Shown here one piece after another: positions 19,571 through 34,313 of a stretch of DNA of 64,000 bases. This DNA is from Streptomyces lincolnensis (GTDB lineage Bacteria; Actinomycetota; Actinomycetes; Streptomycetales; Streptomycetaceae), in the NCBI RefSeq assembly GCF_001685355.1, contig NZ_CP016438.1:4898001-4962000 (forward strand). The letters are read 5' to 3'. The notes beneath the pieces are model-generated. The model was not told the origin of the DNA, ran no database searches, and saw only the letters and a program-made list of their open reading frames with translations. Made by a program: the position numbers and the translations under genes. Every line of letters starts with the position of its first letter. Position 1 is the stretch's first letter.

Positions 19571-20771
19571 CCCGCCCGGCACACGGCAGCCACGCCCGGA
19601 CGATGAACCCGCCGTGCGGGCCCGGGCCCGCCGTCAGTTCGCCGCCCAGCGCGCGGGCCCGCTCCCGCATGCCGGTGATGCCGCTGCCGGGCAGGCCTCC
19701 CGTGGCGGCGGGTCCCCGGCCGTCGTCGGTGATCTCGACCGTGAACTGCCGCGGGCCGCGTTCGGTGCGGACGGTGACCGTGGTGGCGCGAGCGTGCCGG
19801 GTCACGTTGGTGAGGGACTCCTGGATGATCCGGTAGGCGGCCAGGTCCAGTTCGGCGGGCAGCGGCCGGTCACCGGTGGACTCAAGACGTACGTCGAGAC
19901 CGGCGAGGCGTGCGGACTCCACCAGGTCGGCGAGCCGGTCGAGGCCGGGCGCGGGCGCGGTGGGCGCCGCCTCGTCGACCTGACGCAGCACGCCCAGGGT
20001 GGCCCGCAGTTCGCGCAGCGCCTCCCTGCTGGTCTCCTTGATCGCGCCGAGCGCCTCCTCGGCCCGCTCCGGCCCGCCCGCCGGGTCCTTGCGCAGGCGG
20101 CGCAGGGCGGCCGCGGACTGGACGTTGATCAGCGAGATGTGGTGACCGACGACATCGTGCAACTCCCGCGCGATCCGCAGCCGTTCCTCGCTCGCCGCCC
20201 GCTGCTCCGCCTCCCGGGCCAGCGCCAGCCGGTTGTGCCGCACCCACCCGAGGGCGACCACCCCGACGAGCCAGCCGGCCAGCATGAACAGGGCGACGCC
20301 GTTGACGTCGTGGTTGCCCCGCAGGGTGCCCGCGCCGGTCAGTGCCAGCGCCAGGGCGGCCAGGACGACCGCGGCCCGCAGCCGGCCGGCGGCGGCGACC
20401 GTGTACAGGGCGACGACGAACGCGAGCATGAGGGGACCGTCGTAGAGGCTGGTCAGGTAGTAGGCGATGGTGAGGACCAGGACCAGGCTCGCCACGGCCA
20501 CCGGGCGGCGACGGCACAGGTACAGCGCCCCGCAGGCGGCCGTGAGCAGCGTCCAGTCGACCGCCACGGCCTGCCAGGACTCCGTCCGCCCGCCGACCAG
20601 CGAGCGCATGCTGCCGAGCGCGACCAGCACGAAGACACCGGCGGCGAGCGCCGCGTCCGCCGCGTGCCCGCGCGGATATCGCGGCTCGCGTGGCGATCGC
20701 GGCCGTCGCGGATGCCGCGGCCCGGCTGGGAACACCGGCCGCAGCCGACGGGACACCGTGACCGACACCAT
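19560..20771 (-). CDS. NarL-type sensor histidine kinase
   Basis: A 403-residue membrane kinase. Five or six TM segments span about residues 35-185. A HisKA_3 dimerisation helix follows, with the phospho-His in ERLRIARELHDVVGHHISLI. The C-terminal HATPase has an N-box-like region (IIQESLTNVTRHARA) and a G-box (DDGRGPAATGG, GSGITGMRERA). This is the usual partner of NarL-type regulators in actinomycetes. The start MVSVTVSRR was chosen because upstream codons are compositionally odd. Its stop begins the mini-ORF array leading to the response regulator. A divergent small membrane-protein gene lies upstream. Confidence 0.9.
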   Translation of the reverse strand: MVSVTVSRRLRPVFPAGPRHPRRPRSPREPRYPRGHAADAALAAGVFVLVALGSMRSLVGGRTESWQAVAVDWTLLTAACGALYLCRRRPVAVASLVLVLTIAYYLTSLYDGPLMLAFVVALYTVAAAGRLRAAVVLAALALALTGAGTLRGNHDVNGVALFMLAGWLVGVVALGWVRHNRLALAREAEQRAASEERLRIARELHDVVGHHISLINVQSAAALRRLRKDPAGGPERAEEALGAIKETSREALRELRATLGVLRQVDEAAPTAPAPGLDRLADLVESARLAGLDVRLESTGDRPLPAELDLAAYRIIQESLTNVTRHARATTVTVRTERGPRQFTVEITDDGRGPAATGGLPGSGITGMRERARALGGELTAGPGPHGGFIVRAWLPCAGREPS

Positions 20772-20946
20772 GCCGCCAGCGTAGGCAGACCGCGTCCACC
20801 GCGCCGTCCTTCCGGCGGTGGAGGAGGGGACGGCCGCCCCGCAACTCCAGGGGTACGAGCGGTCCGGCGGCCGCAACCGACGGGGTACGCCAGGTGTCCT
20901 CTCCCGGCCGACGCCCGTCCGGCGCCCGCCCGCCGACCCTGGGGCC

Positions 20947-21378
20947 ATGAGCACCGACCTCAGTCCTCCGCTCGCCCTGGCCCGGCGGCTGCGCCGCGTG
21001 AACCGGCCGATGGTGGCCGCGCTCACCGCCACCGCGCTGATCCGGCCGCTGTTCTCGGTCACCGGTCTGAGCGACGCGCTCGGCCGGCCCGTCACCGCGC
21101 TCGTCCTGACCGCCGTCATCGCGCTGACCTGGATCCTCGCCGTCGGCCTCACCCGCGTACCCGAACCCCTGCTCACCCTCGTGGCCGTCGGCGTGGCCTA
21201 CGCGCTGGCCGTGCTGATCGGCAGCGCGGTCCTCTCCCCGCTCCTCGACGGGGAGCTGCGGGGCCCGGCGGCCAAGCCGTACGCGATCGTGCCGCTGTTC
21301 GTCGTCAACGCGCTGTGGGGGGCGTTCTGCGGGGTGTGCGCGATGGGGGTGCGCAGACTGCGGGGGACCGGTCGGTGA
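20947..21378 (+). CDS. small four-TM membrane protein
   Basis: A 143-residue protein with an Arg-rich N terminus and four hydrophobic segments (VAALTATALIRPLFSVTG, LVLTAVIALTWILAVGL, LLTLVAVGVAYALAVLIG, IVPLFVVNALWGAFCGV). It looks like an integral membrane protein of unknown family, common beside actinobacterial two-component genes. It is divergent from the kinase gene, so the 175-base gap probably holds both promoters. The start MSTDLSPP is preceded by GGGGCC only, a weak ribosome site. Confidence 0.7.
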   Translation: MSTDLSPPLALARRLRRVNRPMVAALTATALIRPLFSVTGLSDALGRPVTALVLTAVIALTWILAVGLTRVPEPLLTLVAVGVAYALAVLIGSAVLSPLLDGELRGPAAKPYAIVPLFVVNALWGAFCGVCAMGVRRLRGTGR

Positions 21379-21440
21379 GGGACCGGTCGGTGAGGAATCG
21401 GCCGCTGAGGGACCGGTCGGTGAGGGATCGGTCGGTGCGG
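21366..21440 (+). repeat. 15-bp tandem repeat, five copies
   Basis: The unit GACCGGTCGGTGAGG repeats at 21366, 21381, 21411 and, with changes, at 21396 and 21426. The first copy holds the last codons and stop of the small membrane-protein gene. Because the unit is 15 bases, extra copies keep frame. It looks like a slippage-prone spacer before the DUF72 gene. Confidence 0.85.
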
Positions 21441-21459
21441 GACGGGTAACCGGTTCCGC

Positions 21460-22329
21460 ATGGCTGGGAGGATCCTCGTCGGCACGTGTTCCTGGACCGA
21501 CCGCGCTCTGGTCGGCAGCGGCTGGTACCCGGCCGGGCGGCGCGATGCCGAGGGGCGGATCGGGTACTACGCCGAGCGGTTCGGGGTGGTCGAGGTCGAC
21601 GCGAGCTACTACGCCCTGCCCGGCGAGCGGAACAGCCGGCTGTGGGTGGAGCGCACTCCGGACGGCTTCGTCTTCGACGTGAAGGCGTTCTCGCTGCTCA
21701 CCGGGCATCCGACCCGGGAGGCGGTGATGCCGGGCGGGCTGCCCGCCGATGCGAGGAACCCGGCGGTCCTGGACGAGGTGTGGGCGCGGTTCGCCGACGG
21801 GATCGAACCGATCCGGGCGGCCGGGCGGCTGGGCTGCGTGCTGTTCCAGTTCCCGCCCTGGTTCCGGCCGGGGGCGCGGGCCGAGACGTTCCTGACGGAG
21901 TGTGCGGTACGCACGGACGGGTGGCCGGTGGCCGTGGAGTTCCGGCACCCCGCGTGGTGGGGCGAGCGGCCGGCGACCGAGGCGCTGCTGGCCCGGCTCG
22001 GCTTCAGCGCCGTGGCCGTCGACATGACCCAGACGCTGCCCTTCTCCATCCCGCCCGCCACACCGGTGACTTCACCCCGTCTGTCCGTCGTGCGGTTCCA
22101 CGGGCGCAGCGCCGCGTGGGGCACGGGAAGCAAGGAGGACCGCTTCCGGCACGACTACTCACCGGCCGAACTCGCCGAATGGACGCCCCGCTTACGCGCC
22201 CTCGCCGCCCAAGTCGACGAACTCCACGTCCTGTTCAACAACTGCTGCGGCGACTCGGCGGTACGCGCCGCCGAGTTGATGTCGAGCATCCTGCCGGGCT
22301 CCCCTGCTACGATCGATCACGAGAATTGA
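21460..22329 (+). CDS. DUF72 family protein (YecE-like)
   Basis: A 289-residue protein with the DUF72 TIM-barrel pattern. It starts with ILVGTCSWTDRALVGSGWYP, then VEVDASYYALPG, and WPVAVEFRHPAWW in the centre, all typical of the family. It ends in DELHVLFNNCCGDSAVRAA. DUF72 proteins are conserved in bacteria and archaea; their reaction is not established. It has no membrane segments, so it should be cytosolic. It is followed by a small membrane-protein gene 42 bases downstream on the same strand, which may be co-transcribed. Confidence 0.9.
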   Translation: MAGRILVGTCSWTDRALVGSGWYPAGRRDAEGRIGYYAERFGVVEVDASYYALPGERNSRLWVERTPDGFVFDVKAFSLLTGHPTREAVMPGGLPADARNPAVLDEVWARFADGIEPIRAAGRLGCVLFQFPPWFRPGARAETFLTECAVRTDGWPVAVEFRHPAWWGERPATEALLARLGFSAVAVDMTQTLPFSIPPATPVTSPRLSVVRFHGRSAAWGTGSKEDRFRHDYSPAELAEWTPRLRALAAQVDELHVLFNNCCGDSAVRAAELMSSILPGSPATIDHEN

Positions 22330-22371
22330 ACGTGTTCAACACGCGAACACGAGCAACCGCAGGGGGAACGC

Positions 22372-22653
22372 ATGTCCGCAGTCACCACACCTCGCCAGGA
22401 CGACTCACCCGCCACCGCGCTCGGCCCCGTCGCCCTGTTCCTCGGGCTCGTCGCCGCCACGGGAGCCTGGCCCGCCCTGATGTTCGCCACCCTCCCGTGG
22501 TCGCTCATCGCCGGCGGCCTCGCCGTCACGTTCGGCGCGTCCGGCATCCACTACGCCCGTCAGGGCATCGGCCGGATGTGGACGGCCGTGGCCGGGACCA
22601 CCCTGGGCGCGGTCGGGCTGGTCGGTGTCTACACGCTCATCGGGTTCGCCTAG
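22372..22653 (+). CDS. small membrane protein
   Basis: A 93-residue protein with three hydrophobic stretches (VALFLGLVAATGAWPALMFA, LIAGGLAVTFGASGIHY, TTLGAVGLVGVYTLIGFA) and a short hydrophilic N terminus. AGGGGGA lies 6 bases before the ATG. It resembles the short membrane proteins with DUF4190-like topology that are common in Streptomyces, but the family is not certain. A convergent copper-protein gene follows after a CTGGTC repeat. Confidence 0.7.
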   Translation: MSAVTTPRQDDSPATALGPVALFLGLVAATGAWPALMFATLPWSLIAGGLAVTFGASGIHYARQGIGRMWTAVAGTTLGAVGLVGVYTLIGFA

Positions 22654-22681
22654 AGCCTGAACCGGCGGGCGGGCGGGCTGG

Positions 22682-22711
22682 CTGGTCCTGGTCCTGGTCC
22701 TGGTCCTGGTC
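22682..22711 (+). repeat. 6-bp tandem repeat (CTGGTC)5
   Basis: CTGGTC is repeated five times without error in the gap between two convergent genes. It is a simple microsatellite, likely variable in copy number between strains, with no visible role. Confidence 0.85.
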
Positions 22712-22739
22712 CGGCGGGTCCTCGTCCGACGGTCGGGTC

Positions 22740-24677
22740 CTAGCCGATCCGCACGTTCTGCGTCACGCTCACCTGGTCGATGTCCGACACCCGGACGGTC
22801 ACCTTCATCTCCCAGACACCGGCGAGGGGCAGGGTGAGCGCGCTCGTCCCCCAGTAGCCGCCCTTGTCGGCGAGTTCGGCGTCGATCGGGCCGATGTCCT
22901 GGACGGGATGGGTGAAGGACAGCCGCAGTTCGGGGACGGTGGCGATACCGCCGTCGGGGGTGAGGACCACGGCCTCCACGGAGTTCTCGCCCTTACGGCC
23001 CGGATCCAGGGTGATCTGCACCTTGCCGCGGGCCCGGCCCACCTCGAAGGGCACGTACGACACGGACGCGGTCGGCAGCCCCGCCACCGAGGCGTCCTTC
23101 GCCGCCTCCGCCGCGGCCCGGCCCGGCAGCGTGCCGGCGAGGATCGTACTGAACACCAGCACCGCGACCGCGATGACCACCTCCACCAGCACGGACCGGC
23201 GCAGGCCGCGCCGGAACGGGTCGTCGGAGGGCACGGACTCGGCGGGCACGGACTCGGAGGGGACGGACTCGGCGGGCCCGGCAGGCCCGGCAGGCCCGGC
23301 AGGCCCGGAGGACTCCGACTCCGACTCCGACCCGGCGCTCGCTCCACCCGCCGCGCCCCCGGTCGCGCCCACCCGCTCCGGCACACGCTCCTCCACCACG
23401 GCCTCCACCACAGCCTCCGACGGCTTCGCCACACCAGCCCCCGCCGACTCCGTCACCAGCCGTGCCGTCCACTGCCGGGACAGTCCCGCCATCCCCAGCA
23501 GCAGCACCACGGCGACCAGCTTCAGGAACAGGAGCCTGCCGTACGTCGAGTCGGTGAGGGCGGACAGGGAGCCGAGGCCGCGCCAGGACTGGTAGACGCC
23601 GGTGACGACGAGGACGGTGACGCAGCCGAAGGCCAGCCGGGAGAAGCGGGTGACCAGGGCGGCCGGGGCCGCCGACGAGCGGGACAGCGTGACCAGCAGG
23701 GCCGCGAGGCCGCCCAGCCACACCGCCATCGCCAGCACGTGCAGCACGGACGAGGTCATCGCCACCGGCACCTGGATCCCGGCGGACGCGTGCTCCGCGG
23801 CGGCCCAGGTCAGCGCCAGGGCGACCGAGAGGACGGCACCGCCCGCGAGCCAGGCCCGCGACAACGCCGCGCGCCGCAGCAGTCGTACGACGAAGAAGGC
23901 GGCGACCGGCAGCAGGGCCAGGCGGACCAGCAGTGCCTCGCCCGGGCGGGTGGTGAGGACGCGGGTGAAGGACGAGAGGTCGAAGGCCGCCGCCGGGCCC
24001 GCGCCCGACTCGTACGGGGCGCGCAGCACCAGCAGGACGAGCGTGGCACCGCCCAGGGTCCACAGCCCCGCCCACAGCGGCCCGCGCAGCGGACCCGAGT
24101 CCGGCGGGCGGCAGACCGCGACGAAGGCCGCCGTGCCGATGAGCAGCGCGGCGCCGAGATAGGCGAGCCAGCGGGCGATGTTGTAGAGGCCGCCGGTCGC
24201 CGGGTCCTCCACCGGCCCCGTGTCGATCGTCGCCGTCGTCGCGGAGGGCTTGCCGACGGAGAAGGTGAAGGCGCCCGAGACCGGGTGGCTGTCGGCGGAC
24301 ACCACCCGCCAGGCCACCACGTAGGTGCCCTCGCCGAGCTTCCCGGGCAGGGTCGCCCGGACCGTGTCGGAACCGTCCGGCCCGTGCACGACCTTCGCCG
24401 GACGCAGCCGCCGGTTCTCCGGGTCCAGGACCCGGAAGGAGTCGTCGAGCAGGCCGACGGACTCGGTGAACGTCAGGGTGATGTCACGCGGGGCGGTCTT
24501 GAGGACGGTTCCGTCCCGGGGGTCGGTGGAGCGGAGGGCCGCGTGCGCGGACGCCGTTCCCGCACCGCCGCCGAGGAGCAGGACCAGCACGGTGCCCAGC
24601 AGCACCAGCCCCTGAAGTCCCCGGTGTCGTCGCCCCGCGCCGCGCTCACCCTCACGTTCCACGTGTGTACTCCGCAT
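22740..24677 (-). CDS. CopC-CopD fusion copper protein
   Basis: A 645-residue fusion. The signal peptide ends ASA-His, giving a mature N-terminal His45. Together with Asp129 and His131 (SADSHPVSG) this forms the Cu(II) site of CopC. After the CopC domain (to about 145) come about eight TM helices of the CopD domain (residues 160-430). A Ser/Glu/Pro/Gly-Pro-Ala repeat linker (SESESSGPAGPAGPAGPA) and one more TM follow, then a C-terminal extracellular beta domain (about 540-645). Such YcnJ-like fusions bring copper across the membrane. No copper regulator is adjacent. The start is taken as the first ATG; a GTG five codons later is possible. Confidence 0.85.
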   Translation of the reverse strand: MRSTHVEREGERGAGRRHRGLQGLVLLGTVLVLLLGGGAGTASAHAALRSTDPRDGTVLKTAPRDITLTFTESVGLLDDSFRVLDPENRRLRPAKVVHGPDGSDTVRATLPGKLGEGTYVVAWRVVSADSHPVSGAFTFSVGKPSATTATIDTGPVEDPATGGLYNIARWLAYLGAALLIGTAAFVAVCRPPDSGPLRGPLWAGLWTLGGATLVLLVLRAPYESGAGPAAAFDLSSFTRVLTTRPGEALLVRLALLPVAAFFVVRLLRRAALSRAWLAGGAVLSVALALTWAAAEHASAGIQVPVAMTSSVLHVLAMAVWLGGLAALLVTLSRSSAAPAALVTRFSRLAFGCVTVLVVTGVYQSWRGLGSLSALTDSTYGRLLFLKLVAVVLLLGMAGLSRQWTARLVTESAGAGVAKPSEAVVEAVVEERVPERVGATGGAAGGASAGSESESESSGPAGPAGPAGPAESVPSESVPAESVPSDDPFRRGLRRSVLVEVVIAVAVLVFSTILAGTLPGRAAAEAAKDASVAGLPTASVSYVPFEVGRARGKVQITLDPGRKGENSVEAVVLTPDGGIATVPELRLSFTHPVQDIGPIDAELADKGGYWGTSALTLPLAGVWEMKVTVRVSDIDQVSVTQNVRIG

Positions 24678-24746
24678 CCGGAACCGCCGCCTTCCGCGGT
24701 AGTACGGACGCGGGCGCTCTCGTGCTCACCGGCCGGTCCGTGGCGC

Positions 24747-25532
24747 TCACCACGTCGAACGCGCCGACACGCCCCCGTCGACGACCAGGTCGTGCCCGGT
24801 CACCCAGGAGGCGAGCGGCGAGGCCAGGAAGACGCACGCGTCGCCGATGTCCTGCGGGCGGCCCAGGCGCCCGAGGGGAGCCGCCTCCCGCCATCGCCGC
24901 ACCCCGTCCGGCCAGGCGTCCTCCAGGCCCTCCCGGTGGACGAGCCCCGGCGAGACGGTGTTCACGCGGATGCCGAGCGGGCCGTACTCCAGCGCCGCCG
25001 ACCGGGCGTGCATCACGACGGCCGCCTTGGACGCGGAGTAGTGGGCGTGGTCCGGGGCGGGCCGGCTCGCCTCGATGGAGGCGATGTGGGTGACCGAGCC
25101 GCCCTGCTCCCGCATGACCTCCGCGGCCGCCCGGGTGCACGAGAAGACGCTCGACACGTTGGTGTCCACGACCTCCCGCCACTCGCCCGCGGTCATCTCG
25201 GGCAGGGCCCGCGTCGGCTGCACCCCCGCGTTGTTGACTAGTGCCGTCAGCCGCCCGCCGCCCCACTCGGCGGCCTCCCGCACCAGACGGCGGCAGGCGT
25301 CCTCGTCGGTGAGATCGGCCTGGAGGACGACGGTCCGGGCGCCCGCGTCGCCCGCCTGCCGGGCGGTTTCCCGGGCCGCCGCCACGGACGTACGGCAGTG
25401 CAGGGCCACCGCGGCCCCGTGCTCGGCGAACCGCAGCGCGATGCCCCGCCCGATGCCGCCGCCCGCGCCGGTGACCAGGGCGATCTGTCCGTCCAGGAGT
25501 CCCGGGGGCCTGGGGTGTTCCGGAGGTGTCAT
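24747..25532 (-). CDS. SDR-family oxidoreductase
   Basis: A 261-residue classical short-chain dehydrogenase. It has the cofactor motif TGAGGGIGRG near residue 20, NNAGV near 100, a catalytic Ser region (THIASIEASR), and Tyr/Lys in HYSASKAAV. The acidic/basic pattern after beta-2 (LHCRTS) suggests NADP. Its ATG overlaps the stop of the DUF985 gene in ATGA, which sets the start and makes it the last gene of a four-gene iron-boxed operon. The substrate is unknown. In this setting a role in siderophore or iron-linked metabolism is a guess. Confidence 0.9.
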   Translation of the reverse strand: MTPPEHPRPPGLLDGQIALVTGAGGGIGRGIALRFAEHGAAVALHCRTSVAAARETARQAGDAGARTVVLQADLTDEDACRRLVREAAEWGGGRLTALVNNAGVQPTRALPEMTAGEWREVVDTNVSSVFSCTRAAAEVMREQGGSVTHIASIEASRPAPDHAHYSASKAAVVMHARSAALEYGPLGIRVNTVSPGLVHREGLEDAWPDGVRRWREAAPLGRLGRPQDIGDACVFLASPLASWVTGHDLVVDGGVSARSTW

Positions 25533-26008
25533 GGACGGCACAGTCCCGCGATCAGCTCGGCCCGGTCCGGGTGCCGCGCCGTCAGCTCCTTCTCGTCCCC
25601 GTGCTCGTAGCCCTCGTAGGTGAACCCGGGGGCCATGGTGCAGCCGAAGAAGGTCCACGCGCCTCCGGCCACGACCCGGGCGCCCATCCAGGTGCCCGCC
25701 GGGACGGTGAGCTGGAGGTGCTGGCCGGCGAGGACGTCCGGGCCCAGGACGGGAGTCGAGGACGTGCCGTCCGGGGCGAGCAGGAGGAGCCCGAGCGGGT
25801 CGCCGAGATAGAAGTGCCAGATCTCGTCGGTGGGCAGGCGGTGCAGGGCAGAGAAGTCGCCCGGCGCGGCGGTCAGCAGGGCGACGATCGCGGAGCCCTC
25901 CGGTCGTCCGTCGGGCCGTTCGGGTCCCGCCCAGGTGCGTCGGAAGAGCCCGCCCTCACGCGGGATGGGCTCCAGACCGTAGTGGGCGACCAGATCGTCA
26001 GGAGTCAC
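25529..26008 (-). CDS. DUF985 cupin protein
   Basis: A 159-residue cupin of the DUF985 type. The pattern FSALHRLPTDEIWHFYLGDPL carries two His residues and a Glu, and GCTMAPGFTYEGYEHGD comes near the end. Metal-binding cupins of this group resemble sugar epimerases, and their reaction is not known. It overlaps the acetyltransferase gene upstream by 11 bases and the SDR gene downstream by 4 bases. It is therefore the third gene of a tightly coupled operon led by a penicillin-acylase-type gene. Confidence 0.85.
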   Translation of the reverse strand: MTPDDLVAHYGLEPIPREGGLFRRTWAGPERPDGRPEGSAIVALLTAAPGDFSALHRLPTDEIWHFYLGDPLGLLLLAPDGTSSTPVLGPDVLAGQHLQLTVPAGTWMGARVVAGGAWTFFGCTMAPGFTYEGYEHGDEKELTARHPDRAELIAGLCRP

Positions 26009-26633
26009 CCGGGAAGGCTACCTCCCGCCGCAGGAACGCCAGTTGGGCGTGCTTCTCGGGCAGGTACACGTCCGGGATGTCGATCTCCGGCAGGACGACG
26101 GCCTCCCCCGCCTCGAAGCCCTGCTTCAGGAAGCGGGCGATCGCCTTCTCGTTGCGCACGTCGGGGTCGACCACGACCCGCCGGCGGTCCAGGCCGAGCA
26201 GGACGAATCCGGCGACGGCGCCGAGCAGCGCGGACGACCAGCCGGGCCGGGTCCCGTCCCCGCCCGCGGGCGCGAGCAGCAGGTGGACGCCGATGTCGCC
26301 GGGTTCGACCTCGTAGCACTCGCCGACGCGGTCGGCCCGCGGGTCGTAGGTCTGGAGGAGGCCGACCGGTTCGGCGTCCTTCAGCAGCAGGAAGGCGTGA
26401 TGGGTGTCGAGGGTGTCCATGTGCGCGTAGATCTCCGCGACCTGGTCCCTGGTCAGCCCGTTCATGCCCCAGAACGCCGCCCGCTCCTCGCTCACCCACG
26501 CGTGGACCGTCCCGGCGTCGGCGTGCGCGTCCAGGGGGAGCACGCGGACGGTTCCGTAGCCGTCGACGGTCTGCTCGTGGACGGGGTCACGGGCGAGTTC
26601 GCGGGTGAGGTCACGGGGCTGGGTGTCAGACAT
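25998..26633 (-). CDS. IucB/RhbD-like GNAT acetyltransferase
   Basis: A 211-residue GNAT enzyme of the Acetyltransf_8 type. The pattern HAWVSEERAAFWGMNGLT, then DIGVHLLLAPAGG (acyl-CoA region), VVVDPDVRNEKAIARF, and KHAQLAFLRREV near the end match enzymes that acylate N6-hydroxylysine or hydroxylated diamines in hydroxamate siderophores (IucB, RhbD, DesC). It overlaps the acylase gene by 8 bases and the cupin gene by 11. No hydroxylase (IucD-like) or NIS synthetase is in the window, so it may modify a siderophore made elsewhere rather than belong to a full cluster. Confidence 0.85.
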   Translation of the reverse strand: MSDTQPRDLTRELARDPVHEQTVDGYGTVRVLPLDAHADAGTVHAWVSEERAAFWGMNGLTRDQVAEIYAHMDTLDTHHAFLLLKDAEPVGLLQTYDPRADRVGECYEVEPGDIGVHLLLAPAGGDGTRPGWSSALLGAVAGFVLLGLDRRRVVVDPDVRNEKAIARFLKQGFEAGEAVVLPEIDIPDVYLPEKHAQLAFLRREVAFPGDS

Positions 26634-28719
26634 CGCTTTCCTTCATGAGCCGGTCCCAGTCGGTGACGACCGGGACGAGATCCCCCTTGAGCCACAAGGG
26701 GAGTTGATCACGGTGATGGGCCGAACCGGGCACGCCCGAGGCGCCGAAGGGCACCACCCACAGGCTGTCCTCGCGCCGGGCCAGGTCCCACACGTACCGG
26801 GCGGCCGGGCCACGCGCGCTCAGATCGCTCCAGCCGGGCACGGCCGACGTGCACAGCACGCAGTCGTGGTCGCCGGACAGCCCCGGTTCCTCGTCCCCGG
26901 CGCCGGGCAGCGCGCGCCAGGGCGACAGACGGTGGGTGTCGCCCCACATCCCCACGGGCGGTTCCGCGGCCACCTCCTCGACGGCCGCGCGGACGGCCTC
27001 GGCCCGGTCGACGCCGTACAACTCCTCGGCCCGCAGCAGGTGCTCGAGCGCGAAGCCGATCCGCGGGACGAGGTGCATCCAGGGCAGGAGGACCTCCGGG
27101 TAGGCGGGCGGGGTGGTCAGCGCGGCGAAGGCGGGGTGCGCCGCGAGCCGCCGTACGACGGCACCGCGTACCGCCGCGTACAGCGCCGCGTCCGTGCTGT
27201 CCGCGTCCATGTGGCGGTCCCAGCGCAGCAGGGTGTCCCTGGTCCGGGCCGCCTCGGGAGACAGTCCGTCCAGCTCCGCCAGGCGGTCCAGCAGCGGTCC
27301 GGCGGAGGAGAGCCGGGTGTCCATGTGGATCGACGGCATGTCGGCGGGCGACCAGTGGTCCTTGCCGTCGAGGAGGGCCGTGATGCGGTCGGCGCGGTGG
27401 GCGGGGGCGAACTCGACGCCCAGCGGGGCCGACGGTCCGCGCTGGTTGGCCATCACCGCGATGCCGTCGGTCAGGCCGGCGCGGGGCATCTCGTGCCAGC
27501 CCCGCCACTCGTGCCCGGGCTCCCACGCGGGCACCGGCCGGACCCGGTTGGCCTCGGCCCGCTCGGGCACCCGGCCGGCCACCCGGTGCAGCAGGCCGCC
27601 CTCGGTGTCGGCGGCCTGGACGACGTTGACGGGTTCGGCCCAGACGTCGAAGGCCCGGTCCACTTCGGCGACCGTGCGGGCCCGCAGCAGCGGGAGCAGG
27701 GCGCCGAAGCCGAGGTCCCCGGTGACGCGGGGCGGATACCGGAGGCTGACGGCGAGCGGGGCGAGGACTTCTTCGCCGCTCTCCGGGACACCACCGTCGA
27801 GTCCTTCCGGGCCGCCCACGATGACGGGCCCGCGGTCGGTCTCGATCACCTCCACCTCGACCGGCTCCCCGCCCGCACACGCGACGGTCTCCGTGTGCCG
27901 GGCGGCCCGCCGCCAGCGGCCGTCCGGGCCGAGGGCCTCGACACCGGCGCCGGTGCGGCGCAGGCGCTCGCGGTAGAGGTCCTGGTAGTCGGCCATGGCG
28001 TTGGTGATGGCCCAGGCGACCGTGCCGGTGTGGCCGAAGTGGGCGATGCCGGGGACGCCCGGGACGGCGAGGCCGACGACGTCGAACTCCGGGCAGGACA
28101 GGTGTATCTGCTGGTAGACGCCGGGTTCCTCGATGAAGCGGTGCGGGTCGCCGGCGATCACCGCCCGGCCGGTGGTCGTGCGCTCGCCGCTCACCAGCCA
28201 GCCGTTGCTGCCGGAGGTGCCGGGGCCGTCGGCGGCGAACAGGCCGACGGCCGCGGGGCCCAGGTGGCGGACGGCCTGCTCGCGCCAGAGCTTGGCCGGG
28301 AAGCCGGCGAAGAGGATGTGCGTGGAGAGCCAGACACCGAGGGGGGTCCAGGGCTGCCAGCGGCCGGGGGCTAGGCCGACGCGGGCGAACTCCGGCGCCG
28401 TGGCCCCGGCCAGCCCCTCGTTGACGCCGTCGACGTAGGCCCGGACCCAGTCGGCGGTCTCCGGGTCCCGTCTCTCCAGCGCGGCGAAACAGCGTCTCGC
28501 GGTGTCGTCGAGTCGGGCCTGTCTCGCGAATCCGTCCCAGGCCAGGGCGTCGGTGCCGAGGAAGGCGGCCGAGGTGCCCTGGGCGCGGTGCCGTTCCGCC
28601 TCCAGCTGCCAGGCCCGGTCGCGGGCGGTCACCAGGCCCTGGGCGCGGGCGAGTTCCCGTGCGCTGCCCGCACGGAGATGGGGTATCCCCCAGGCGTCGC
28701 GGTAGATCCCTGTGATCAC
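26626..28719 (-). CDS. penicillin-acylase-family Ntn hydrolase
   Basis: A 697-residue Ntn-hydrolase precursor. The N-terminal part (IYRDAWGIPHLRA, AQGLVTARDRAWQLEAERHR) is the usual alpha-chain start. The processing site and catalytic Ser are at GTSGSNGWLVSG (Ser171), so cleavage would free a beta chain beginning SNGW. No signal peptide is visible, unlike periplasmic penicillin acylases and PvdQ, so it should act in the cytoplasm. It is first in a four-gene operon and begins 20 bases inside an iron box. Amide bonds are the known targets of this family; here a siderophore or its precursor is a reasonable guess. Confidence 0.85.
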   Translation of the reverse strand: MITGIYRDAWGIPHLRAGSARELARAQGLVTARDRAWQLEAERHRAQGTSAAFLGTDALAWDGFARQARLDDTARRCFAALERRDPETADWVRAYVDGVNEGLAGATAPEFARVGLAPGRWQPWTPLGVWLSTHILFAGFPAKLWREQAVRHLGPAAVGLFAADGPGTSGSNGWLVSGERTTTGRAVIAGDPHRFIEEPGVYQQIHLSCPEFDVVGLAVPGVPGIAHFGHTGTVAWAITNAMADYQDLYRERLRRTGAGVEALGPDGRWRRAARHTETVACAGGEPVEVEVIETDRGPVIVGGPEGLDGGVPESGEEVLAPLAVSLRYPPRVTGDLGFGALLPLLRARTVAEVDRAFDVWAEPVNVVQAADTEGGLLHRVAGRVPERAEANRVRPVPAWEPGHEWRGWHEMPRAGLTDGIAVMANQRGPSAPLGVEFAPAHRADRITALLDGKDHWSPADMPSIHMDTRLSSAGPLLDRLAELDGLSPEAARTRDTLLRWDRHMDADSTDAALYAAVRGAVVRRLAAHPAFAALTTPPAYPEVLLPWMHLVPRIGFALEHLLRAEELYGVDRAEAVRAAVEEVAAEPPVGMWGDTHRLSPWRALPGAGDEEPGLSGDHDCVLCTSAVPGWSDLSARGPAARYVWDLARREDSLWVVPFGASGVPGSAHHRDQLPLWLKGDLVPVVTDWDRLMKESDV

Positions 28720-28738
28720 CCTGTGCTCCCTCAGTCTT

Positions 28739-28757
28739 TTAGGTTAGGCTCACCTAA
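28739..28757. promoter_or_regulatory. iron box (DmdR/IdeR/DtxR-type operator)
   Basis: TTAGGTTAGGCTCACCTAA matches the 19-bp DtxR-family iron box closely. It lies between the acylase-led operon (start 28719, minus) and the siderophore-interacting-protein gene (start 28804, plus). One Fe2+-bound DmdR/IdeR repressor site could therefore shut both off when iron is sufficient. Confidence 0.9.
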
Positions 28758-28803
28758 GTAGACGCTCGATGTGTGGGAATCGTACGTGAAGGGTGAAATC
28801 GTC

Positions 28804-29526
28804 ATGGCGCAGGGGCACGGCTGGGAGGGCGCGGTCCTCAAACTGCTGCGCGCGAAGGACTTCGTCCTCACCGTCACGGGCGCCGAGGACGTCACCGAGC
28901 ACTACCGCCGCGTCCACCTCACCGACGGCGGCATGCTCGCCGAGACCGGCATCCACCCGACCATGTGGGTCCGGCTCTGGTTCGACAACGCCGGCAAGCC
29001 CCACCAGCGCGCCTACACCCTGGTCGACCCGGATCCGGCGGCCGGCACCTTCTCCCTGGAGTTCGCGCTCCACGAGGGGTGCGCCAGTGACTGGGCGCGG
29101 GCGGCGAAGCCCGGGGACACGATCGAGGCGACCGTGCACGGGACGGGCTTCCAGCGGCCCCAGCCCGAGCCCTCGCACGTCTTCGCGATCGGAGACCCGG
29201 CCTCGCTGCCCGCGCTCAACTCCCTCCTGGACGAGCTGGACGGGGCCCCGGCCACCGTCTGGTTCGAGTCCACCCTCGACGACCTCCCCTTTCGCACCGA
29301 CCCCTCCCGCCACGACGTACGCCCCGTTCCCCGCGAGGACTCCGGCGCCCACCTCGTCGCCGAGGTGAAGCAGTCCCTCCCCGACCTGCTGAAGGCAAGC
29401 CCCGAGCCGTACGTCTGGATCGCCTGCGACACGGCCACGACCCGCACGCTGTCGTCGTACGTCCGCAAGGAACTGGGCGTCCCCAAGCAGCGCGTGCACG
29501 CGCTGGGGTACTGGCGGGCGGACTGA
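28804..29526 (+). CDS. siderophore-interacting protein (ferric-siderophore reductase)
   Basis: A 240-residue flavoprotein of the SIP family. The FAD-binding motif RAYTLVD is at residues 69-75, followed by FSLEFALHEGCASDWARAAKPGD. The NAD(P)H-binding C-terminal half has the family ending YVRKELGVPKQRVHALGYWRAD. SIPs reduce the iron of imported ferric siderophores in the cytosol. The ATG at 28804 is preceded by AAGGGTGA; an in-frame upstream GTG is less likely. The iron box upstream shows it is an iron-starvation gene. Its divergent partner is the acylase operon. Confidence 0.9.
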   Translation: MAQGHGWEGAVLKLLRAKDFVLTVTGAEDVTEHYRRVHLTDGGMLAETGIHPTMWVRLWFDNAGKPHQRAYTLVDPDPAAGTFSLEFALHEGCASDWARAAKPGDTIEATVHGTGFQRPQPEPSHVFAIGDPASLPALNSLLDELDGAPATVWFESTLDDLPFRTDPSRHDVRPVPREDSGAHLVAEVKQSLPDLLKASPEPYVWIACDTATTRTLSSYVRKELGVPKQRVHALGYWRAD

Positions 29527-29637
29527 GCCCGCGCGTCCGGCCGTAGGTCCTGTCGCAAAGATCTCGCCAAGTGGCGCAACCCTTGCGGTGACCGGTGGGT
29601 CGAGTGGGACATCCGTTGCTTCGGTCAAGGAGTCCCG

Positions 29638-31128
29638 TTGCGCAGAACAGCCATGGCGGCCGCCGTGTTCGCCGGGGTCGTCGGCGTCACCCTCACGCCC
29701 ACGGCCTCGTCGGCCGCCACCCCCTACAAGGGCGCCAACACCGCCGCCGTCCAGGACGACTTCAACGGCGACGGCTACCGCGACCTCGCGGTCGGCGCGC
29801 CGCACGCCGCCAACGGCAGCGTGGAGTCGGCCGGAGCGGTCGTCGTGCTGTACGGATCGGCGTCCTCGGTCAGCGCCACCCGCCGGACCGTCCTCACCCA
29901 GGCGACGACCGGCGTCCCCGGCGCCCCGGAGGACGGCGACGGCTTCGGCCGGACGGTCACCAGCGCGGACCTCGACCGGGACGGCTACGCGGACCTGATC
30001 GTCGGCACCCCCGACGAGGCCGTCGGCAGCGACTACGCCCGCGGTTCGGTGACGGTCGTCTGGGGAAGCTCGACCGGCCTGAAGACCGCCACCAACATCT
30101 CCCCGCCCGCCGGCTACGGCGAGGGCCGCACGTACTGCCGCTTCGGCCTCTCCCTGGCCACCGGCGACATGAACGGCGACGGTGCCCCCGAACTGAGCGT
30201 CGGCTCCGGCTGCGAGGGCGCCACCTACACGGGCCCCTTCACCCGCACCGGACAGGCCACCACCCCCGTCCGGGAGACCTTCTACGGCGAGACCCGAGGC
30301 GTCGTGATGGGCGACGTCGACGGCGACGGCGACGCGGACCAGTTCTGGCTGCCCGGCCCCACCGACGGCGACCTGCGCGGACCGGTCTACGTCCAGCCCG
30401 GCGTCAAGGACGGCGACCCCACCCCGCCCTCCTACCGCACCGCGCTGCCCTACGCCGACGGCCACGCCGGCGTGATCGGCGACCTCAACGGCGACGGCTA
30501 CGGCGACCTCGTCACCGCCGTCTCCACCGACGACTCCATGTCCGGCGGCCCGGACGGCTGGGCCCACCGCGGCGGCGAGATCCAGGTCCTCTACGGCAGC
30601 GCGCAGGGCATCACCGCCACCCAGAAGCCCCACGTCTACTACCAGGACACCGCCGGGGTGCCCGGGGCCGCGGAGGACGGCGACATGTTCGGGCAGTCGC
30701 TGAGCGTCGGCGACGTGAACGCCGACGGATACGCCGACGTCCTCGTCGGCTCCCCCGGCGAGGCCGTCGGCACCCTCGCCTCCGCCGGTACGGCCGTCCT
30801 GCTGCGCGGCTCCGCCACCGGCCTGACCACCACCCAGGCCGCCGGATACACCCAGAACACCGCGGGCGTCCCCGGTGCCGCCGAGACCGCCGACCGGTTC
30901 GGCGCCGCCGTGCACCTCGCCGACCTCAACAGGGACGGCAGGGCGGAGACGATCGTCGGGGCACCCGGCGAGAACAGCGACGGCTGCGTGTGGGTCGCCC
31001 GCGGCTCGGCCTCCGGCCCGGTGCCGAGCGGCTCGGTGAACCTGTGCGGCACCAGCTCCGGGATCACCGTCCGGGGCGTCGAGGGCGCCTTCGGTGAGGC
31101 GCTGCCGAGCGCTCACGTGGAGCTCTGA
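29638..31128 (+). CDS. secreted FG-GAP repeat (integrin-alpha-like) beta-propeller
   Basis: A 496-residue exported protein. It starts at TTG with AAGGAG 5 bases upstream and has a signal peptide ending PTASSAATP. Seven FG-GAP-type Ca2+ loops can be counted (DDFNGDGYRD, ADLDRDGYAD, GDMNGDGAPE, GDVDGDGDAD, GDLNGDGYGD, GDVNADGYAD, ADLNRDGRAE), which fits one seven-bladed propeller. No enzyme domain is attached. Such Streptomyces proteins are extracellular and of uncertain function, perhaps adhesion or substrate binding. It stands alone, with its own promoter region behind the SIP gene. Confidence 0.85.
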   Translation: MRRTAMAAAVFAGVVGVTLTPTASSAATPYKGANTAAVQDDFNGDGYRDLAVGAPHAANGSVESAGAVVVLYGSASSVSATRRTVLTQATTGVPGAPEDGDGFGRTVTSADLDRDGYADLIVGTPDEAVGSDYARGSVTVVWGSSTGLKTATNISPPAGYGEGRTYCRFGLSLATGDMNGDGAPELSVGSGCEGATYTGPFTRTGQATTPVRETFYGETRGVVMGDVDGDGDADQFWLPGPTDGDLRGPVYVQPGVKDGDPTPPSYRTALPYADGHAGVIGDLNGDGYGDLVTAVSTDDSMSGGPDGWAHRGGEIQVLYGSAQGITATQKPHVYYQDTAGVPGAAEDGDMFGQSLSVGDVNADGYADVLVGSPGEAVGTLASAGTAVLLRGSATGLTTTQAAGYTQNTAGVPGAAETADRFGAAVHLADLNRDGRAETIVGAPGENSDGCVWVARGSASGPVPSGSVNLCGTSSGITVRGVEGAFGEALPSAHVEL

Positions 31129-31153
31129 CGCGAGCCGGGGCATGATCGGGGTC

Positions 31154-31747
31154 ATGGACGTCACGCTTCACCTCGCCCAGGACCCCGAGGCCGACGCACT
31201 GCTCGGACGGTCTCCGCTCGCCGCGCTGGTCGGGATGCTGCTGGATCAGCAGGTCCCGATGGAATGGGCGTTCAAGGGGCCCCGGACCATCGCGGACCGG
31301 CTCGGCGCGGACGATCTGGACGCGCACGACATCGCCGCGCAGGACCCCGAGGCCTTCGCCGCGCTGCTCTCCGAGAAGCCGGCCGTGCACCGGTACCCCG
31401 GTTCCATGGCCAAGCGGATCCAGCAGCTGTGCCAGTACCTCGTCGAGCACTACGACGGGAACGCCGAGCTCGTCTGGAAGGGCGTCGCCGACGGACCCGA
31501 GCTGCTCCGCCGCCTGGAGGGGCTCCCCGGCTTCGGCAAGCAGAAGGCCCAGATCTTCCTCGCCCTGCTCGGCAAACAGCTCGGCGTCCGGCCCAAGGGC
31601 TGGCGCGAGGCCGCCGGCGCCTACGGCGACCCGAAGTCCTTCCGCTCCGTCGCCGACATCACCGGCCCCGAGTCCCTCACCAAGGTCCGCGCCCACAAAC
31701 AGGAGATGAAGGCGGCGGCGAAGGCGGCCAAGGCAGCGGGGTCGTAA
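31154..31747 (+). CDS. HhH-GPD-type base-excision repair protein
   Basis: A 197-residue protein with the HhH-GPD pattern. LAALVGMLLDQQVPMEWAF lies near the N terminus and the helix-hairpin-helix LEGLPGFGKQKAQIFLALLG near residue 120. It has no Fe-S cluster cysteines. Relatives are DNA glycosylases that remove damaged bases, and actinobacteria have a short form like this one. The start at MDVTLHLAQ is preceded by GGGG. The ATG 12 bases earlier also fits. It is downstream of the FG-GAP gene and unrelated to it. Confidence 0.85.
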   Translation: MDVTLHLAQDPEADALLGRSPLAALVGMLLDQQVPMEWAFKGPRTIADRLGADDLDAHDIAAQDPEAFAALLSEKPAVHRYPGSMAKRIQQLCQYLVEHYDGNAELVWKGVADGPELLRRLEGLPGFGKQKAQIFLALLGKQLGVRPKGWREAAGAYGDPKSFRSVADITGPESLTKVRAHKQEMKAAAKAAKAAGS

Positions 31748-31825
31748 CCGCCCCCTGTCCGCCGAACGGGCGGTTCTCGGCGTCGGCTGCTGGGCCTTCG
31801 GCGGGGCGCGGGGAGATCACCTCCC

Positions 31826-32149
31826 ATGAGCACCGAACGCAGCCTGCCGCGCCGTCGTCGCGCCTGGCTGCGGGTGCTGGTGCTGCTCGTGGCCCTGGTG
31901 CTGCCGGGCGCGCACACCGGAACACACGCGGCGCCCGCGACACCGCCGGCCGGCGAGGCGATCGAGTACGACCTTCTCGACACCGCCCTGCGGCTCCCGG
32001 CCCGTGCCGCCCGGCGTCCCGTCGTACCCCTGCGTCCAGCGCCCCGGCCGGAGCCGGCGCCCGGCGTCCCGGCGGGCGCTCCGCTCCCGGCGGTGCCGAG
32101 GCCGTCGTACACCTTGGCCGCCCTGCGGACGGTGGTCCTGCGCTGCTGA
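31826..32149 (+). CDS. small exported Pro-rich protein
   Basis: A 107-residue protein. A basic N terminus (SLPRRRRAWLR), a hydrophobic core (VLVLLVALVLPGA) and a cut near HAAPA make a signal peptide. The mature part is rich in Pro, Ala and Arg and ends VVLRC. No domain is recognised. A 40-residue gene follows 56 bases downstream on the same strand. Together they look like a short strain-conserved pair of unknown role. Confidence 0.65.
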   Translation: MSTERSLPRRRRAWLRVLVLLVALVLPGAHTGTHAAPATPPAGEAIEYDLLDTALRLPARAARRPVVPLRPAPRPEPAPGVPAGAPLPAVPRPSYTLAALRTVVLRC

Positions 32150-32205
32150 GGGGACCGGTCCTCTCCGGTCCCCCGGTTCATCGGCACGACGCGAGGAACA
32201 CAGAC

Positions 32206-32328
32206 ATGGCCATTGATCCGTACGCGGTCCTGCGCGCGCTGCTGCGCGCCGAGGCCGCCCGCAGCACACCGAAACCGCAGGTGAAGGGAGCCAGGCCGGA
32301 GCAGCCCGAGAAGGAACGCGGGCGCTGA
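32206..32328 (+). CDS. very small hypothetical protein
   Basis: A 40-residue protein, MAIDPYAVLRALLRAEAARS then a Lys/Pro/Glu-rich tail. GAGGAA lies 8 bases before the ATG. The N-terminal half looks helical and the tail disordered. It is too short for a domain call. The good ribosome site and neighbouring same-strand gene support it as real. Confidence 0.55.
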   Translation: MAIDPYAVLRALLRAEAARSTPKPQVKGARPEQPEKERGR

Positions 32329-32356
32329 TCCGTCGGCGGGGGCGGGGCCCGACGGG

Positions 32357-33131
32357 TCACCGCCTCCGCCGGGCCGTCCCGAAGACCGAGCGGGTGATCT
32401 CACGGCCGATCTGAGTGCCGAGGGAGCGGGCGAGGGACTTGAACACGCCGCTGCCCACGGCCTGTGCGACGACGGAGGGCTCCTGCCGGGGGGCTTCCCC
32501 GGGTGCCTTGGGTGCCCTCGGTGCGTTTGATCCCTTCGGCTCCTTCGGCTCCTCGGCCTTCCGCAGGGCCATCTCGTCCGGGCCCTTCGCACCGCGGGAC
32601 TCGGTCAGCTTCTCGTACGCCGATGCGCGGTCCACAGCCTGTGCATAACGCGCGTGGAGCGGGGACGCCGTCACCGCCCGGTCCAGGACCGCCGTGTCGA
32701 CCGGGCCCATCAGGGACTCCGGCGCGCGCAGCCGGGTCGCGGCGACCGGGGTCGGGGCACCCTTCTCGCTGAGGACGGTGACGACGGCCTCGCCGGTGCC
32801 CAGGCCGGTGAGCAGCTCCTCCAGGTCGTAGGCCGAGTTCGGGAAGGTCTTCACCGTGGCCCGCAGGGCCTTCTGGTCGTCCGGGGTGAAGGCGCGCAGG
32901 GCGTGCTGGACGCGGTTGCCGAGCTGGGCGAGGACGTCGGCGGGTACGTCCTTCGGGGTCTGCGTCACGAAGAAGACCGTCCCAGAGGAGGGCGCCGAGA
33001 TCGAGGGCGGGACCGGTGAAGGCGTATCCGGCGGCGATCTCCAGCGCGGGAGCGGGGAGGGCGGGGGCGCCGCGCGAGGGCGTGGACATGGCACCGGAAA
33101 CTGCCTCTGGCACGGTCTCACTGTCCCTCAT
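32357..33131 (-). pseudogene. HerA/DUF853-like ATPase with internal deletion and frame change
   Basis: Two parts in different frames resemble the ends of a DUF853 HerA-like helicase. The N-terminal part, from ATG 33131, reads EIAAGYAFTGPALDLGALLW, as family N termini do. At about 32977-32981 the frame changes and the C-terminal part begins at VFFVTQTPKDVPADVLAQLG and runs to 32357. The intact family is about 480-530 residues; here the whole central ATPase (Walker A and B) is missing, about 1 kb. The clean ends point to a deletion that joined the two pieces out of frame. ATPase function must be lost. Confidence 0.75.
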
Positions 33132-33236
33132 GACGGACCCCTGTTTCCCTTATGAAACCTTTTGCACCATCTTTTCCAGCCTCGCACTCCGTCGCCATGG
33201 CTGCGCCCGGAAGGTCTTGACCGGTAGGCTTTCCGT

Positions 33237-33533
33237 GTGATCTTCAAGCGCATCGGAAACGGCCGGCCGTACCCCGACCACGGCCGGGAAAGCACCCGGC
33301 AGTGGGCGGACGTCGCGCCGCGCCCGGTCCGCCTCGATCAGCTCGTGACGACCAAGGGCCAGCTCGACCTGGAAACCCTGCTCGCCGAGGACTCGACCTT
33401 CTACGGCGACCTCTTCGCGCATGTCGTGAAATGGCAGGGCGACCTGTACCTGGAGGACGGCCTGCACCGCGCGGTCCGCGCCGCGCTCCAGCAGCGCCAG
33501 GTGCTGCACGCCCGGGTCCTGGAACTCGACTGA
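33237..33533 (+). CDS. conserved small protein, VapB-like annotation
   Basis: A 98-residue protein starting at GTG (MIFKRIGNGRPYPDHGRE) with a ParB/MazG-like core (VRLDQLVTTKGQLDLETLLA) and DGLHRAVRAALQQRQVLHARVLELD at the end. It is very conserved among Streptomyces and often annotated as a VapB-family antitoxin (from memory). There is no toxin gene next to it, and the ParB-like DG(x)HR pattern suggests another role. It lies upstream of the LytR_C-type gene on the same strand. Confidence 0.75.
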   Translation: MIFKRIGNGRPYPDHGRESTRQWADVAPRPVRLDQLVTTKGQLDLETLLAEDSTFYGDLFAHVVKWQGDLYLEDGLHRAVRAALQQRQVLHARVLELD

Positions 33534-33665
33534 CACCCGCGGTGGACCTTTTGTGAACCCATGGCGGGCCGTTTGTGACACCCGCAGTGGGCCTTTTGGG
33601 TCTACCGGCCGGTGTCCAATGATCATCTAGTAGGCATCGCCGCCCAGGCGCACTACGCTGCGCCC

Positions 33666-34313
33666 ATGAGCATGCTGACTCCCCCCGGCATGGGCGGGAA
33701 GTACCGGATCACGGGCGACACACACCCCCGGATGCGCCGACCTCGGCGCCGCGGCAGGCTCGTGGTCGGGGTGGTCGCCTCCGCCGCCGCGCTGGGGCTG
33801 GTCGGCTGGGGCACGTTGCAGCTCATCGACGTCTTCACCGGCGGTGGCGACAAGGCGACGGCGGCCGGACCCAAGGCCGACTGCGGGACCCGGGCCACGC
33901 CGTCCCCGTCCGCGTCCCCCAGCGCCGCCGTCGTGATCAAGCCAAACCGGATCACCGTCAACGTCTTCAACGCGACGGCCCGCAGCGGCCTGGCCAAGAA
34001 GACCGCGGACGAGCTGAAGAAGCGCGGGTTCAAGATCGGGGACGTCGGTAACGCGACGGCGGACTACGACAAGAAGGTCAAGGGGACGGGGCTGCTGCTC
34101 GGGCCCCCGTCGTCTCTGCGTACCTCGTTGCCGGTCCTGGCCACGCAGCTGAGCGGGGCCGAGCAGCGGCCCGACGGACGCAAGGGCACCGACGTCGATC
34201 TGATCATCGGTGACGGGTTCAAGGCGCTGAACGGCAAGGCCGCCGCGGACAAGGCGCTGGCCGCGCTGTCCTCGCCGAAGCCGGCGGACTCCTCGTCCAA
34301 GAAGAGCTGTTGA
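33666..34313 (+). CDS. LytR C-terminal-domain membrane protein
   Basis: A 215-residue protein. The basic N-terminal region (RMRRPRRRGR) precedes one TM (LVVGVVASAAALGLVGWGTL), then a Ser/Pro linker. A LytR_C domain follows (ITVNVFNATARSGLAKKTADELKKRGF then DVDLIIGDGF). Known: such domains occur with or without the LCP catalytic domain in cell-wall-linked proteins. Here the catalytic part is absent, so it is likely a wall or membrane accessory factor. The start MSMLTPPGMGG was preferred over an upstream ATG with no family-like sequence. It is convergent with upp across a terminator. Confidence 0.85.
   Translation: MSMLTPPGMGGKYRITGDTHPRMRRPRRRGRLVVGVVASAAALGLVGWGTLQLIDVFTGGGDKATAAGPKADCGTRATPSPSASPSAAVVIKPNRITVNVFNATARSGLAKKTADELKKRGFKIGDVGNATADYDKKVKGTGLLLGPPSSLRTSLPVLATQLSGAEQRPDGRKGTDVDLIIGDGFKALNGKAAADKALAALSSPKPADSSSKKSC

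Follow-up and report, generated by a model that had tools for sequence, protein, structure and literature searches.

In Streptomyces coelicolor, the gene group SCO4045-4052 was described in PLoS Biol 2025 as being under the control of DmdR1, a control that was predicted and supported by co-expression (PMC12161575). According to that paper, SCO4047 encodes an HhH-GPD protein, SCO4048 (desJ) is paralogous to desF, the gene of the ferrioxamine reductase, SCO4049 (desG) belongs to the penicillin amidase family, SCO4050 (desH) is similar to DesC, SCO4051 is a 'sugar epimerase' and SCO4052 is a dehydrogenase. Inactivation of desG and desH lowered desferrioxamine B about 1000-fold and 16-fold, respectively, and raised desferrioxamine E, and these effects were reversed by complementation; inactivation of desJ raised desferrioxamine B (PMC12161575). 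The authors proposed that DesG desuccinylates N-hydroxy-N-succinylcadaverine and that DesH acetylates the product. In the present study we analyzed a window of 64,000 nucleotides of Streptomyces lincolnensis (G000:C1:4898001-4962000), the genome of which is a single contig of 10.3 Mb. Our subject is the set of genes at 24747-29526 that diverge from a single iron box; coordinates are window positions unless a contig is given. The protein that best matches the acylase of this group, P0002, is 97% identical to it and carries the name Streptomyces lincolnensis.

This gene group corresponds to SCO4047-4052 of S. coelicolor and is a copy of a known locus. We think it very probable that it is the desJGH locus of this strain, and that DesG and DesH edit a desferrioxamine precursor so that the synthetase DesD makes desferrioxamine B. 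As in S. coelicolor, the genes stand in the order HhH-GPD, siderophore-interacting protein (SIP), DesG, DesH and two further genes, here with an FG-GAP gene inserted. The minus strand carries desG (26626..28719), an S45-family N-terminal nucleophile (Ntn) acylase without a visible signal peptide (PF01804, 525 bits, residues 5-691), followed by desH (25998..26633), a DesC-like acyl-CoA N-acyltransferase (PF13523), and by the genes of a cupin and a short-chain dehydrogenase (SDR). These four genes overlap successively by 8, 11 and 4 bases, as checked from their starts and stops. Genes with PF01804 and PF13523 thus lie within 1 kb of each other, which is the rule for desGH in PMC12161575. The plus strand carries desJ (28804..29526, alternative start 28771), which encodes a SIP-type ferric-siderophore reductase (PF04954/PF08021) and has the SIP domains of IrtA as its best solved relatives.

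The initial annotation had placed a near-perfect iron box between the SIP gene and four overlapping genes, and this observation of an iron-controlled gene group is confirmed; the locus is real, conserved and already known. It had called the second gene 'IucB-like'. Since the best match of DesH among solved structures is DfoC (5o7o), the name 'DesC-like' fits better. DesH is 34% identical to DesC of the same genome. The annotation had also found no synthetase gene, and indeed none was seen among the listed open reading frames of window positions 20000-34000.

The iron box, TTAGGTTAGGCTCACCTAA, occupies 28739..28757 (no strand) and has one mismatch to the 19-bp iron-box palindrome. By this 19-bp pattern match it is an operator of the DmdR1/IdeR type in the divergent promoter, upstream of desGH. 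In 100 shuffled windows, no iron-box match at up to 3 mismatches was obtained. The pattern TTAGGTTAGGCTNACCTAA has two exact matches in the 10.3 Mb of the genome, namely the desJGH box and the box before desA; at up to 3 mismatches there are 10 forward and 18 reverse matches, whereas the reversed pattern gave 0 and 1. We then compared close loci, defined as the best 80 of at least 568 stretches encoding a DesG relative, all from named genomes. In a scan that began 200 nt before DesG and ended 30 nt within it, all 80 had a best 19-bp match of at least 15 of 19 positions (15 in two loci, 16 in two, 17 in 49 and 18 in 27).

DesH was present in all of the 75 close loci that had at least 3.5 kb downstream. 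The cupin was found in 60 and the SDR in 50 of these 75, none of which had the SDR without the cupin, and SIP was found in 68 of the 80 close loci and was missing from 12. These lower counts indicate that DesH is the constant partner of DesG and that SIP, cupin and SDR are not. The initial annotation had suggested a search of genomes for the co-occurrence of the four genes plus SIP; such a search bears out the pairing of DesG with DesH, not a fixed set of five. Natural DesG-DesH fusions occur in other Streptomyces (P0043 and P0103, PF01804 plus PF13523, 904 and 906 amino acids).

An intact desEFABCD cluster lies at G000:C1 ~3.814-3.821 Mb (L111), 1.1 Mb from the locus in the window. Its genes belong to the expected families, that is, a binding protein, SIP, a pyridoxal phosphate (PLP) decarboxylase, a Lys/Orn monooxygenase, Acetyltransf_8 and IucA/IucC, and iron boxes stand before desE and before desA. 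Because desD is located in this distant cluster, the synthetase that the initial annotation had missed sits elsewhere in the genome. The whole genome has six IucA/IucC matches, and a second siderophore cluster of the nonribosomal-peptide-synthetase-independent (NIS) type, with its own Acetyltransf_8 gene, was seen at G000:C1:7413000-7430000 (L112).

To test for co-occurrence, 394 genomes of the class were queried with DesG and with the DesD encoded by the S. lincolnensis genome. We followed the 63 genomes with a best acylase match of at least 177 bits, together with G331 (64 loci) and later G020, and left weaker matches aside. With a threshold of 44% identity for DesD, 85 genomes were counted as having it; 12 matches of 36-39% were not counted. 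In 51 of the 85 DesD genomes, DesG had a DesH homologue other than DesC beside it, and among the followed loci no such pair was found in the 309 genomes without DesD (Fisher p 1e-41, ignoring relatedness). The strict count omits G031, G107, G139 and G178, in which the only nearby acyltransferase match is the DesC of the cluster; with them it becomes 55 of 85. Four split DesG matches (G133, G191, G225 and G293) are included in this count and excluded from the residue count and the tree below, and the acylase of G020 had neither DesH nor DesD nearby. Of 40 Streptomyces, 33 had DesD and 26 of these had desGH. That is, desGH tracks DesD, which supports a role in making desferrioxamine rather than in recycling it.

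We next considered what kind of acylase DesG is. Its GSNGW motif is intact at residues 170-174; Ser171 is beta-1 and Arg194 is beta-24. Judged by hydropathy and not by a dedicated predictor, it has no visible signal peptide, the best 15-residue value in the first 45 residues being 0.3 compared with 1.95 for DesE. The initial annotation, which had reported an Ntn acylase with this motif and no signal peptide, was right in both respects. The room before the homologous DesG start was at most 15 in-frame codons in 60 of the 80 relatives and more in the other 20. Among solved sequences, the best match was 35sz, a 'penicillin acylase family protein' of which the function is not stated (beta chain, E 1.3e-114), and the next were glutaryl-7-aminocephalosporanic acid (7-ACA) acylase 4hsr (4.4e-68) and D-succinylase 7ea4 (1.1e-31); the best values against penicillin G acylase and PvdQ were 1.6e-21 and 1.3e-7, respectively. 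By sequence comparison, the nearest solved relatives whose function is known are thus glutaryl acylase and D-succinylase rather than PvdQ. PvdQ, which the initial annotation had offered as a model, was rejected, because DesG reaches 39.3 bits with the PvdQ equivalog, for which the cut-off is 950, and has Arg, not Phe, at beta-24. A 23-row alignment gave an AlphaFold model of DesG that was too weak for use (mean predicted local distance difference test [pLDDT] score 41.5, predicted template modelling [pTM] score 0.32).

The residue at beta-24 was counted in the 64 named loci, which gave 63 sequences (L004 gave none), 59 of them DesG-like and 4 more distant (L178, L179, L001 and L003). All 59 DesG-like sequences, with at least 35% identity and with lone copies included, have Arg there; the distant acylases have Arg (L179), Leu (L178 and L001) and Tyr (L003). 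Two further structures, 1FM2 and 1KEH, are presumably glutaryl-type cephalosporin acylases. In Table 1 of PMC11241749, which covers ten structures, Arg is at beta-24 in 4HSR and 7EA4 only; the others have Phe (1FXH, 2WYB, 3K3W and 7REO), Leu (1FM2 and 1KEH), Trp (4YF9) and Val (6NVW). In the same table, 1FM2 and 1KEH have Arg in the row after beta-24, so a dicarboxylate can also be bound in other ways than through Arg at beta-24. DesG carries the beta-24 residue of the dicarboxylate-type S45 acylases 4HSR and 7EA4 and not that of the penicillin G acylases (Phe, or Val in 6NVW). At the level of a single residue, the conserved Arg fits the published proposal that DesG removes succinate. Beyond the known locus, what is of value lies in this succinylase-like kinship with Arg at beta-24, in the breadth of the co-occurrence test and in the two riders, cupin and SDR; the words 'glutaryl' and 'D-succinylase' do not occur in the main text of PMC12161575.

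Taken together, the locus probably works as follows. At low iron, an iron-dependent repressor (DmdR1 in S. coelicolor) would leave the single box and both directions would be transcribed. DesG, an Ntn acylase that probably cleaves itself and remains cytoplasmic, would take the succinyl group off the N-hydroxy-N-succinylcadaverine that DesC makes, and DesH would acetylate the freed N-hydroxycadaverine. DesD, encoded 1.1 Mb away, could then build desferrioxamine B instead of only the cyclic desferrioxamine E, and DesJ would serve as a ferri-siderophore reductase. The anatomy, iron box, conservation, linkage, co-occurrence with DesD, kinship and pocket residue are taken directly from our analysis. 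Desferrioxamine B is an iron-overload drug. The locus helps to decide whether a strain makes this compound or the cyclic form only, so the product can be predicted where desGH is recognized in a genome. The kinship to succinylases, together with the invariant Arg at beta-24, makes the published desuccinylation proposal addressable by point mutation.

The most likely target of DesG and DesH is thus a desferrioxamine building block before assembly, not a siderophore recycled after SIP. The initial annotation had suggested that the operon acylates and deacylates, or recycles, a hydroxamate siderophore after SIP frees the iron. The first part is right in kind: iron control, a deacylase/acylase pair with no export signal and a hydroxamate siderophore are supported by the genome and by the S. 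coelicolor mutants (PMC12161575), and the interpretation was in this sense half right. We consider it distinctly improbable that the two enzymes act on whole desferrioxamine, remodelling or recycling it once it has been imported and SIP has freed the iron. The SIP gene is divergent from DesG in 68 of the 80 close loci, and four genomes without an IucA/IucC-type synthetase (G063, G126, G219 and G319) keep a DesG orthologue together with 3, 4, 2 and 3 SIP genes, respectively, as recycling would allow. However, 12 close loci lack SIP whereas DesH is constant, no DesG with adjacent DesH was found outside DesD genomes among the followed loci, and the S. coelicolor knockouts alter which desferrioxamine is made (PMC12161575). 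Seven acylases of at least 35% identity have no DesH, namely those of G063, G126, G219, G319 and G390, which have no DesD, and those of G342 and G365, which have DesD elsewhere. Upstream of the lone copies of G063, G126, G219 and G319, the best iron-box match reaches 10-12 of 19, a background level that suggests a loss of iron control; DesH-linked copies of the same family reach 15 (L148), 13 (L152) and 9 (L149) of 19. In a midpoint-rooted tree of 60 rows (L172, which is partial, L178 and L003 were dropped), G390 falls outside the DesG clade, the other six DesH-less copies fall inside, and G063 is sister to a DesH-linked copy. Acetyltransf_8 exceeds its cut-off in G126, G219 and G319, elsewhere in the genome and never beside the acylase. 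The lone copies of G063, G126, G219 and G319 correspond to L143-L146; L143-L145 belong to one genus and lie beside a flavin adenine dinucleotide (FAD) amine-oxidase-like gene, and L143 and L145 are also beside a PAS histidine kinase. It is conceivable, though unlikely, that DesG is a succinyl-hydroxamate hydrolase used more than once: in addition to its editing of desferrioxamine precursors together with DesH, a free-standing form in actinobacteria that lack DesD would have escaped iron control and would remove succinyl-type groups from siderophores of foreign origin or from other N-succinyl compounds, while in many Streptomyces the cupin and SDR process the product of the same reaction.

An earlier proposal for DesG by Cruz-Morales and co-workers, as cited in later papers, concerns aryl groups: DesG would put aryl (phenylacetyl) caps onto desferrioxamines or release them. 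An aryl ferrioxamine is made by S. venezuelae, which also carries a candidate desG preceded by an iron box (PMC6401478 / PMC6273383), but arylated forms were not identified in S. coelicolor according to PMC12161575, and the penicillin G acylases have Phe (1FXH, 3K3W and 7REO) or Val (6NVW) at beta-24 (PMC11241749) where all 59 DesG-like sequences have Arg; we regard this function as very improbable. That the acylase serves to break down beta-lactams or acyl-homoserine lactones, with an accidental link to siderophores, is scarcely credible. The Ntn hydrolase family PF01804 is shared with such enzymes, but the iron box in all 80 close loci, DesH in all 75, the lack of a visible signal peptide and the score far below the PvdQ cut-off argue otherwise.

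Several points, including the aryl proposal, weigh against the editing of a precursor by desGH. SCO4049 and SCO4050 are putative orthologues by gene order and by way of a close proxy, S. violaceoruber NRRL S-981 (L034). DesG of this strain is 82% identical to that of the window, the two are sisters in the tree (support 99/95), and its gene order is the same, with no SDR match. SCO4049 is reported to have about 781 residues (W61* removes 721; PMC12161575), compared with 697 in DesG of the window. Some DesH-linked DesG genes have no adjoining box (best 9 of 19 in L132 and L149); in several des clusters the iron box sits before desA instead of next to DesG. Arg at beta-24 is not exclusive, because one of the four distant acylases, L179, shares it. 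The DesG orthologues of G063, G126, G219 and G319 persist with neither DesD nor an adjacent DesH. In addition, 7 of the 33 DesD-bearing Streptomyces showed no desGH; by the correlation published in PMC12161575, these seven should make only uncapped desferrioxamines.

The remaining genes are as follows. The DUF985/Cupin_5 protein (25529..26008, minus strand, PF06172) takes the place of SCO4051, and the SDR (24747..25532, minus strand, PF13561) that of SCO4052; the longest SDR reading frame begins at 25658 and its likely ATG is at 25532. From their distribution, cupin and SDR are common but dispensable riders of the operon. Among the matches listed, the names SCO4051 and SCO4052 occurred in PMC12161575 only, and no other literature search was made on the cupin and SDR. 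The HhH-GPD-type protein (31142..31747, plus strand, PF00730), the counterpart of SCO4047, had a match in 76 of the 80 close loci; it is widely kept beside the locus, with no known siderophore link, and appears to be a conserved neighbor of desJGH whose conservation does not imply membership of the pathway. An FG-GAP repeat protein with a hydrophobic N-terminus (29638-31128) lies between desJ and the HhH-GPD gene and had a match in 7 of the 80 close loci. Downstream of the operon, a CopC-CopD fusion protein of the copper family is encoded at 22740-24677; a match was present somewhere in the stretch, not always adjoining the operon, in 74 of the 80.

We finally compared the locus with known systems. 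PvdQ of Pseudomonas is, like DesG, an Ntn acylase in a siderophore pathway; it is periplasmic, exported with a signal peptide, and cuts a fatty acyl chain. DesG differs from it in having no visible signal peptide, no Phe at beta-24 and 39.3 of 950 bits. The acylases 4hsr and 7ea4 belong, as DesG does, to the S45 Ntn family and have the same residues at beta-23 (His) and beta-24 (Arg), and the active-site Asn and Arg of 4HSR (N242 and R263) align with Asn425 and Arg442 of DesG. At beta-70, DesG has Asn, 4HSR has His and 7EA4 has Arg at that place, and DesG, unlike both, sits in a siderophore regulon. DesC and DfoC belong, like DesH, to PF13523, the N-acyltransferase family of hydroxamate siderophore pathways, whereas DesH is encoded by a separate gene paired with DesG. 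The closest system is desJGH of S. coelicolor (SCO4048-4050), which has the same SIP, penicillin-amidase-family acylase, DesC-like acyltransferase and iron box, the same HhH-GPD neighbor, two further genes (epimerase and dehydrogenase) and a separate desABCD; the locus in the window differs from it in the FG-GAP gene inserted between desJ and the HhH-GPD gene, in the strain and in sequence.

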